Assembly (NCBI GenBank): GCA_025358205.1
Contig: JANYKG010000058.1
Coordinates: 1 to 39,036 of the forward strand
Reading direction: 5' to 3'
Source: Armatimonadota bacterium
GTDB lineage: Bacteria; Armatimonadota; UBA5829; DTJY01
DNA length: 39,036 bases
In this document: piece after piece, positions 21,718 to 33,825 of the stretch
Position numbering within the stretch: the stretch's first letter is position 1
How the letters are laid out: each line of letters begins with the position of its first letter
The notes under the pieces: model-generated
Told to the model about the DNA's origin: nothing
Database searches by the model: none
What the model saw: only the letters and a program-made list of their open reading frames with translations
Program-made: the position numbers and the translations under genes

Positions 21718-21781
21718 GGGAGCGCAGACGTCCCCGTCTGCTCTCTCCGGAGGGAATGCGGGTGAGGACACCCGCGCTCCC
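21718..21781. repeat. REP-like bipartite palindrome, copy A
   Basis: GGGAGCGC (left) and GCGCTCCC (right) pair as outer arms. Each half also forms its own small hairpin: GCAGACG/CGTCTGC on the left, GCGGGT/ACCCGC on the right. The middle is TCCGGAGGG. The element ends one base from the stop codon of the solute-binding-protein gene. It matches the elements around the RAYT gene at 33.0-33.8 kb, about 11 kb away. Confidence 0.8.
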
Positions 21782-21782
21782 A

Positions 21783-31933: not shown

Positions 31934-33040
31934 ATGAGCAAGGTACTTTTCGGCGCGGCACAGGCGCAGCACTTGAAGTGGCAGTCCACCCTGCCCGGCA
32001 AGCTGGACACCATACTGGAGAAGCTGGACATCGCAGGCGACCTGAAGGACAAGCGGGTCTGCGTGAAGATGCACCTCGGCGGCAACGTGGGCTATACTAC
32101 GGTCCACCCCGTCTTCGTGCGCAGGCTGATCACGTTCATCAAGGCGTCCGGCGGCAAGCCGTTCGTCACCGACAGCAACCACTCCGCGCTAACCGCGTTC
32201 GAGCGAGGCTACACGCAGGAGACCATCGGCTGCCCAATCGTCCCGGCGGCGGGCGCCAGTGACAAGTACTACCACACATTCCCCGCGCCGTACAAGAACC
32301 TGAAGGAGCTTCACGTCGCCGGGGAGATCGTGGACGCGGACTACCTGATTGTCCTCTCACACGCCAAGGCGCACGGCAACAGCGGCTACGGCGGGGCGAT
32401 CAAGAACCTTGCACTGGGAGCCATGAACGCCGTCTCGCGCAACGCCCTGCACATGGCCCAGCATTCCGAGAGCTACTGGGACGCAGACAAGTGTACTCAC
32501 TACACGGACGGCTGCGAGTTGTGCATCACTAACTGCAAGCTGAACGCCATGCGGTTTGCCGACGACAAGACCCTGCATGTGGGCTTCCATGAGTGCAACT
32601 TCTGCTATGAGTGCAACACCGTCTGCCCGCACGGCGCGGTGAGCGTCCGAGAGGTTTTTGCGGCTGATTTTCAGGAAGTGATGGCGATTGGGACCAAGAT
32701 CGTGATGAACCATTTCGACGAGAAGAGTAGAGCCTTTATCAACCTGGCGACCAACGTCACGCCGTTCTGCGATTGCTGGGGGTTCTCCACGCCCAGCCTG
32801 GTGCCGGACATCGGGCTGTTTGCGTCGAAAGACATGATCGCGGTGGAGACTGCGACTTTGGACTCGATCAAGACAGAGAACTTGATTCCAGGCTCGATTC
32901 CGCCGTGGCTGACACTGCGGCCTGAGGTTGAGGGTCATCTCTTCAAGAAGATCCACGGCAAGGACCCCTACCTGCACGTCACAGCCTGCGAGCGCCTCGG
33001 CCTCGGTACGAGTGCATATGAAATCGAAGAAGTGGAATAG
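31934..33040 (+). CDS. DUF362 domain iron-sulfur protein
   Basis: The 368-residue cytoplasmic protein has the DUF362 pattern: VCVKMHLGGNVGYTTVHPVF, KPFVTDSNHSAL, YLIVLSHAKAHGNSGYGGAI and KNLALGAM. An embedded ferredoxin-like segment has cysteines in CTHYTDGCELCITNC (about 186-200) and CNFCYECNTVCP (about 221-233), enough for two 4Fe-4S clusters, though the spacing of the first set is not canonical CX2CX2CX3C. DUF362 proteins are often annotated as iron-sulfur or 4Fe-4S-binding proteins with no settled reaction. It has its own promoter and is probably monocistronic. Its stop codon is 3 bases from the first REP half-element. Confidence 0.85.
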   Translation: MSKVLFGAAQAQHLKWQSTLPGKLDTILEKLDIAGDLKDKRVCVKMHLGGNVGYTTVHPVFVRRLITFIKASGGKPFVTDSNHSALTAFERGYTQETIGCPIVPAAGASDKYYHTFPAPYKNLKELHVAGEIVDADYLIVLSHAKAHGNSGYGGAIKNLALGAMNAVSRNALHMAQHSESYWDADKCTHYTDGCELCITNCKLNAMRFADDKTLHVGFHECNFCYECNTVCPHGAVSVREVFAADFQEVMAIGTKIVMNHFDEKSRAFINLATNVTPFCDCWGFSTPSLVPDIGLFASKDMIAVETATLDSIKTENLIPGSIPPWLTLRPEVEGHLFKKIHGKDPYLHVTACERLGLGTSAYEIEEVE

Positions 33041-33043
33041 AGC

Positions 33044-33067
33044 GGGAGCGCGAGCGTCCTCACGCGC
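33044..33067. repeat. REP half-element (left type)
   Basis: GGGAGCGC followed by a small hairpin (GAGCGTCCTCACGCGC) matches the left half of the full elements. It starts 3 bases after the stop codon of the DUF362 gene. Confidence 0.65.
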
Positions 33068-33071
33068 ATCT

Positions 33072-33136
33072 GGGAGCGCATGTGTCCTCACGTGCTTATC
33101 TCCGGAAGGGATGCGGGTGAGGACACCCGCGCTCCC
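33072..33136. repeat. REP-like bipartite palindrome, copy B
   Basis: The outer GGGAGCGC/GCGCTCCC arms pair. The left half forms a GCATGTG/CACGTGC hairpin and the right half GCGGGT/ACCCGC. The RAYT reading frame ends inside this element, with its TGA at 33088-33090. Confidence 0.8.
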
Positions 33137-33708
33137 AAGCACCCGGCTTTCTCCGGATTATTTCGGATATATGCCACCGCTCTCTCATAATGCCGCTCGT
33201 TCCGTATGAACCGGTCCCAGTATTCCTTCTGCCACACAGTACCACTGCGACCCAGCCGTTCGTTGATCTTCCGCGCAGTATACGACTCCCAGCCCTTCAC
33301 AGCATCACAAAGCAAATACGGCTCTTTCATGCGTACCAAGATATGCACATGGTTCGGCATGATCACCCAAGCATGAATCTCGTAGCGAACTCCATCGTAT
33401 GCTCGGAGCGAGTCTTCTACAAGTTCAGCGATAGCAGGCCGGCGAAGCAAACACTCACCATGTCCGGCATCAAGCCATGCGTCTATACGCTCACGGTATG
33501 CCTCGTCACCTTCCGCTGTGTCCGCTTCCTCTGCTAGCCTCTCGGCCACATGTCTCGGCAGCGAATCCGCGAGCCGATAGGTCACCATTTGTGTCACGCT
33601 GCCGCTCTCAAAATGGGGAAGGTAACCTCTAGAATGCCATCCGTATCCGTCCCTGGGAGCGCAGGTGTCCTCACATGCTTCCGCTGTCAAGGTCTCATTC
33701 TCATTCAT
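33088..33708 (-). CDS. REP-associated tyrosine transposase (RAYT, Y1_Tnp family)
   Basis: The 206-residue protein is an IS200/IS605-like single-domain HUH transposase of the REP-associated type. The metal-binding HUH motif is MPNHVHILVRM, and the catalytic Tyr lies in RHYERAVAYIRNNPEKAG. WQKEYWDRFIRNERHY is the conserved RAYT segment. Such enzymes nick and join REP hairpins as single-stranded DNA. REP elements flank it on both sides. The first 20 or so residues (with CEDTCAPRD) and the last 15 (CLGARVSSPASLPEIST) are translations of REP sequence rather than part of the family core. ATG 33708 has an AAGGTG site. The enzyme core looks intact, so it may be active. Confidence 0.9.
   Translation of the reverse strand: MNENETLTAEACEDTCAPRDGYGWHSRGYLPHFESGSVTQMVTYRLADSLPRHVAERLAEEADTAEGDEAYRERIDAWLDAGHGECLLRRPAIAELVEDSLRAYDGVRYEIHAWVIMPNHVHILVRMKEPYLLCDAVKGWESYTARKINERLGRSGTVWQKEYWDRFIRNERHYERAVAYIRNNPEKAGCLGARVSSPASLPEIST
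33655..33678. repeat. REP half-element inside the RAYT 5' coding end
   Basis: GGGAGCGC plus the GCAGGTG/CACATGC hairpin is a left-type half element. It is translated on the minus strand as part of the RAYT N-terminus. Confidence 0.7.
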
Positions 33709-33725
33709 AAGTCACCTTTCACACT

Positions 33726-33796
33726 GGGAGCGCACGTGTCCTCACGTGCTTCCGCTTCCTTCCGGAGGAGATGCGGGTGAGGACACCCGCGCTCCC
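33726..33796. repeat. REP-like bipartite palindrome, copy D
   Basis: A full element, with GGGAGCGC and GCGCTCCC outer arms, a GCACGTG/CACGTGC left hairpin, a GCGGGT/ACCCGC right hairpin and TCCGGAGG in the middle. It lies directly upstream of the RAYT gene. Confidence 0.8.
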
Positions 33797-33801
33797 ATTT
33801 G

Positions 33802-33825
33802 GCGAGCGAGGACGTCCGCGCTCCC
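33802..33825. repeat. REP half-element (right type)
   Basis: GCGAGGACGTCCGCGCTCCC corresponds to the right half of the full elements. It ends 3 bases from the stop codon of the P-type ATPase gene. Confidence 0.65.

Follow-up and report, generated by a model that had tools for sequence, protein, structure and literature searches.

A RAYT gene of an Armatimonadota bacterium with REP-coded protein ends: REP elements with a TGGGA foot as probable insertions into their own transposase gene

REP sequences inserted within the tnpAREP gene are known from subclass 2.4, where they leave the frame undisrupted and lie mostly between the HuH motif and the tyrosine, in a region distant from the DNA site (Quentin et al. 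2018, PMC6006769). According to Table 1 of that paper, subclasses 2.4 and 2.7 have no conserved tail domain, and their motifs are NH[IFV]H, WQ and YIxNNP (2.4) and [ND]HVH, WQ and YI[LR][NQ]NP (2.7). Di Nocera et al. (2013, PMC3733652) listed intragenic REPs in many genes, marked those overlapping RAYT gene ends (5'ov/3'ov, Fig. 8 legend) and described RPE/CGTC repeats, which have no dedicated transposase. The 3' ends of rayt genes can also be drawn into BIMEs (Nunvar et al. 2010, PMC2817692). For TnpAREP both foot and stem-loop are important, and the E. coli protein has a C-terminal tail that can be regulatory: deletion of 21 or 34 residues impairs the enzyme while deletion of 13 activates it (Corneloup et al. 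2021, PMC8266576).

The locus described here lies in a 39,036-nucleotide stretch of DNA from an Armatimonadota bacterium (the window). Seven REP units, arranged as two inverted pairs and three singles, occupy positions 33044-33825 around and inside a RAYT gene. This RAYT with its REP-coded ends is an instance of the phenomenon outlined above. The locus anatomy, the number of REP copies, their conserved foot and covarying stems, the fold of the RAYT, similar cases among relatives and further REP-coded ends in the host together make it probable that a RAYT gene stands here with the REPs cognate to it, which would be ordinary insertions into the tolerant ends of their own transposase gene. The features are as follows.

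33088..33708, minus strand: RAYT / TnpAREP-like Y1 HUH transposase (PF01797, NF047646, PDB 4er8, invariant residues)
33709..33720, minus strand: Shine-Dalgarno-like AAAGGTGA before the ATG at 33708 (sequence)
33726..33796: REP inverted pair (REPIN) upstream of the RAYT start codon, units 33726-33749 (plus) and 33773-33796 (minus); single-stranded DNA fold -26.3 kcal/mol, z -5.8
33072..33136: REP inverted pair coding RAYT residues 191-206 and the stop, units 33072-33095 (plus) and 33113-33136 (minus); single-stranded DNA fold -25.2 kcal/mol, z -7.7
33655..33678, plus strand: single REP at codons 11-19 of the RAYT, with one mismatch in its stem (pattern scan, folding)
33044..33067, plus strand: single decayed REP between the DUF362 stop codon and the RAYT 3' end (pattern scan, folding)
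33806..33825, minus strand: single REP, distal upstream of RAYT; pairs with the codons 11-19 REP in the predicted mRNA fold
21718..21782, plus strand: further REP inverted pair of the same family in the window (pattern scan)

The RAYT frame has 206 codons and is preceded by an in-frame TGA two codons 5' of its ATG. The 206-residue protein matches PF01797 (Y1_Tnp; E 7e-10, 39.5 bits against a cutoff of 23) and scores 77.5 bits with the NCBIfam equivalog NF047646 (REP_Tyr_transpos), just under the curated cutoff of 80. E. coli TnpAREP (PDB 4er8) matches by sequence (E 1.2e-7) and is also the top fold match of the RAYT model (E 3.3e-7), which makes it the closest solved structure. The HUH motif is formed by H120 and H122, the catalytic tyrosine is Tyr180, and a block W159-Q-K-E-Y-W-D165-R-F-I-R169 lies between them. 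In the alignment with relatives H120, H122, Y180 and N184 are invariant, and all catalytic and foot-contacting positions (H120, H122, W159, Q160, D165, R169, Y180, N184) are intact. In an AlphaFold2 model built with 30 homologs, pLDDT exceeds 90 over residues 91-180 and falls below 50 at residues 1-18 and 199-206. The neighbours of the RAYT gene are a convergent DUF362 ferredoxin-like gene at its 3' side, which ends at 33040, and a minus-strand gene for a heavy-metal P-type ATPase. Third-position GC of the RAYT gene is 0.57, compared to 0.83 and 0.77 in these neighbours, which would fit a foreign origin. A plasmid search returned distant transposases only, an Rfam search of the window gave no match, and a tRNA target was looked for and none was found.

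The motifs NHVH, WQ and YIRNNP, a length of 206 residues and a long N-terminal region relate this RAYT to subclasses 2.4 (Bertels group 4) and 2.7. By motif comparison it fits both, D165 and R166, at the positions of E100 and H101, leaning to 2.7. It also shares with these subclasses REPs both around and inside the gene with an unbroken frame. It differs from them in its foot, TGGGA(N)C rather than GT[AG]G, and in the position of its REPs, at the two gene ends and not between HuH and Tyr. The overlap of REP units with both ends recalls the REPtrons of Di Nocera et al. (5'ov/3'ov, PMC3733652), from which the window differs in REP family and host. The resemblance to 4er8 covers fold, HUH, Tyr and the equivalents of W94, Q95 and R104; however, identity over the fold match is 17%, the foot is another and the C-terminus is REP-coded. 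In the open papers searched, no description was found of a TGGGA foot combined with otherwise canonical foot-contacting residues W159, Q160, D165 and R169.

In each REP unit TGGGAGC precedes a hairpin of 7 bp with a TCCT loop (GC-NNNNN-TCCT-NNNNN-GC). The host genome, 4.08 Mb in 200 contigs, contains 84 matches to the core pattern as compared to 6 to the reversed pattern; the element is thus multicopy, and the copy count proposed as a check in the initial annotation did not refute the observation. A search for the hairpin without the foot gave 41 matches against 0 for the control; 39 of these carry the same foot and were already in the foot-based list, and the other 2 are poor palindromes. Among 72 distinct units, a set mostly fetched by its foot, TGGGAGC is near-invariant. 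The stems show paired changes (G-C/A-T/C-G/T-A), and 61 of the 72 are perfect. It is therefore the DNA hairpin and its foot that are conserved in this family. The elements agree with the definition of REPs as short repeated hairpins mostly outside genes (56 of 83 units are intergenic), while the foot TGGGA departs from the 5' tetranucleotide GT[AG]G. Eight contigs (C22, C53, C61, C102, C149, C164, C165 and C169) start within about 50 bases of a REP copy. REPs are therefore probable break points of the assembly, which makes the genome count a minimum.

Allowing up to 2 mismatches, the core pattern occurs 10 times in the window, against a mean of 2.85 and a maximum of 8 in shuffled sequences. 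The three inverted pairs (REPIN/BIME) comprise two at the RAYT gene and the one at 21718-21782. When five units were folded singly, three gave clear hairpins (z -2.2 to -3.5); the codons 11-19 unit, with its stem mismatch, reached z -1.5 and the unit 33044-33067 folded poorly (z -0.7). The initial annotation had proposed a RAYT gene in a REPtron-like layout with two full and three half elements. The Y1_Tnp and 4er8 matches and the flanking REP family agree with the former, and the count of elements is exact.

The same annotation held that REP DNA supplies both protein ends. This is correct in substance, with other lengths: the codons 11-19 unit supplies 9 residues (11-19, rather than about 20), residues 1-10 not being REP, and the 3' pair supplies 16 (191-206, rather than 15) together with the stop. 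As it had stated, the frame ends inside a full element, the TGA at 33088-33090 lying in the unit 33072-33095. The N-terminal REP could have resulted from a misannotated start, a reading that is not supported: no start codon is present between this REP and the conserved GYLPH block, so that the REP must be coding if GYLPH is translated. The sole alternative ATG, GTG or TTG before GYLPH is the TTG of codon 7, still upstream of the REP. At the other end, the last conserved motif is NPEKAG, and residues 191-206 make up the entire remainder. Both REP-coded segments correspond to predicted disordered parts of the protein.

The REPs in and beside the gene could also have a regulatory role, in which pairing of the in-frame copy with an inverted copy upstream would hide the ribosome binding site in the mRNA, binding of RAYT to the hairpins possibly adding feedback. 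Down-regulation of RAYTs by REP hairpins has been discussed (PMC3733652), and the mRNA of the 5' region is predicted to fold at -101.8 kcal/mol (z -8.4), with the distal upstream REP paired to codons 11-19 and AAGGU near the start paired to a downstream ACCUU; the 3' end folds with z -6.0. However, any inverted set of REPs folds strongly, and such z-scores are no test of regulation. Moreover, the REPs that relatives retain in loops and at the C-terminus would not be expected to pair with the start region in this way, and no conserved arrangement was found. We consider this role improbable.

The 3' REP pair occupies the place of the tail found in most relatives, a W-containing (PEDWPWSS-like) segment that follows NPVKAG. 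Insertion of the pair may have cut off this tail and left a decaying or misregulated gene. Since the tail is missing and C-terminal deletions of 21-34 residues impair E. coli TnpAREP (deletion of 13 activating it; PMC8266576), the window copy may be inactive; the decayed stems of one in-frame and one flanking unit point the same way. Conversely, the frame is open, the catalytic and foot-contacting residues are intact, and subclasses 2.4 and 2.7 also lack a conserved tail domain (PMC6006769, Table 1). Decay of the gene is thus possible but rather unlikely, and insertion into tolerant ends of a RAYT gene is retained as the preferred explanation.

REP-coded ends are not special to RAYT in the host genome, where ordinary housekeeping proteins have them too. 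Compared with predicted genes on the fetched stretches of that genome, 22 of 83 REP units extend over the end of a gene, 5 lie inside one and 56 fall between genes; the genes were called by a simple hexamer method, and wrong starts may be behind some of the 5' overlaps. In alanine racemase (L164:1501-1556), 21 mostly REP-coded residues directly follow the Pfam domain, which ends at residue 379. A LarC nickel-insertion protein (L169:15-38), a polysaccharide deacetylase (L177:1501-1524) and one further, unassigned protein (L175:1456-1520) also carry REP-coded C-terminal tails. Of the 6 reading frames of REP DNA, 5 or 6 are open, which accounts for its tolerance in genes. The REP-coded tails recall intragenic REPs and the Rickettsia palindromic elements (RPE), short palindromes translated in frame in unrelated proteins and at their ends; unlike RPE, the family in the window has a RAYT. 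In a reverse transcriptase gene (RVT_1; contig C165, L152:602-656) a REP pair (MGARASSLASGADEDVRAPG) is read in frame immediately ahead of the GIPIGNLTSQ motif.

REP-coded termini had been called unusual in the initial annotation, a view that these counts and the precedents (PMC3733652, PMC6006769) do not support. It had further suggested that they couple excision products to the gene ends, which would make the RAYT gene a REP-bounded transposon. Inverted REPs do bracket the gene. However, the host genome contains a single close RAYT copy, compared to about 80 REPs; similar overlaps occur at unrelated genes, and no joined or empty-site product was seen. Such coupling, which is also not indicated by the peptides described below, appears extremely improbable. 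A multi-copy transposon was likewise rejected, the two further RAYT matches being distant (27-29% identity).

The nearest relatives of this RAYT retrieved by a name search belong to Lentisphaerae and Kiritimatiellota, and each carries its own, different REP family in frame. The sites are the N-terminus, two surface loops and the C-terminus. One relative (L034) has an in-frame REP in the loop preceding the WQKEYWDR block; a second (L035) has REPs at the N-terminus, at the same place as in the window RAYT, in the pre-WQKEYWDR loop and twice at the C-terminus; a third (L036) has them in the first linker, in the pre-WQKEYWDR loop and at the C-terminus. Comparison with relatives did not refute the REP origin of the tails: where a relative has such tails at all, its own REPs code for them. 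The REP-coded tails are not a conserved functional peptide, since relatives differ in peptide sequence, frame and orientation. What most of their REP families have in common is C(T/C)GGGA(N)C before the stem.

A search of 198 genomes of the class of L036 yielded about 70 homologs. Many of these have inserts coded by REPs, and a small set of sites recurs: ahead of GYLPH, at the positions of residues 55-66 and 154 of the window RAYT, and at the C-terminus. In the model, residues 55-66 and 154 are predicted to be loops between structural elements. At 52 RAYT loci, REP-like hairpins per kb, compared to a reversed control, reach 1.52 (0.35) in the core, 2.97 (0.62) in the N-terminal region, 3.29 (0.38) in the C-terminal region and 1.88 (0.47) within 300 bp; elsewhere the value of 0.50 (0.32) is near control. 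At least one such hairpin lies in the core at 20 of the 52 loci. The scanner requires GGGA and so misses some units (L123, L144), while its false positives, such as EYWDRFIRDENHL, are accounted for by the reversed control. In the open papers searched, no description was found of the first-linker and N-terminal sites in Lentisphaerae and Kiritimatiellota lineages.

The 2.5 Mb Kiritimatiellota assembly of L036 yielded three REP copies, all of them inside the RAYT coding sequence (G061:C193:207-686); every stem is intact, with differing base pairs. Of the 8 copies in the assembly of L034, 3 are located at the RAYT. Selection might keep in-gene REPs as cis-acting sites that tie RAYT to its substrate or regulate it, an idea to which we give little credence. 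If in-gene REPs were functional, the continued association of RAYTs with their REPs on transfer would have an explanation.

We infer instead, in line with insertion into tolerant sites, that the substrate of the RAYT is most likely the REP hairpin in single-stranded form, recognized by its TGGGA(N)C foot and its stem-loop, and that the enzyme would cleave and rejoin such hairpins by HUH/tyrosine chemistry. Because the foot is not GTAG, recognition of TGGGA through the known TnpAREP contacts is an extrapolation. Copies would thereby spread through the genome, many of them close to the RAYT's own gene, a presumably frequent landing place. Within the gene, a copy would persist only if it leaves the reading frame open and adds residues that the protein can accommodate, as at both disordered ends in the window RAYT and in two surface loops in relatives. 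The REP-coded residues would then be neutral by-products with no function as peptides.

In-frame REPs in RAYT genes are not claimed as a discovery, having been published (PMC6006769). The present analysis extends them to the gene ends and two defined loops across these lineages. It also adds a REP family with a TGGGA foot in place of GTAG, common to RAYTs of Lentisphaerae, Kiritimatiellota and the host genome, which provides a handle on how RAYTs read the foot.

Some RAYTs (L127, L131, L100, L093 and L150) contain in-frame REP arrays at the N-terminus or in loops (for example GTADRLVG and TANREIGDP repeats), and protein length therefore varies with REP count. At another locus (L120/L094, G131:C76), two adjacent near-identical RAYT frames are accompanied by several tandem RAGARRSQEEMEIS units, an arrangement that looks like a local duplication.
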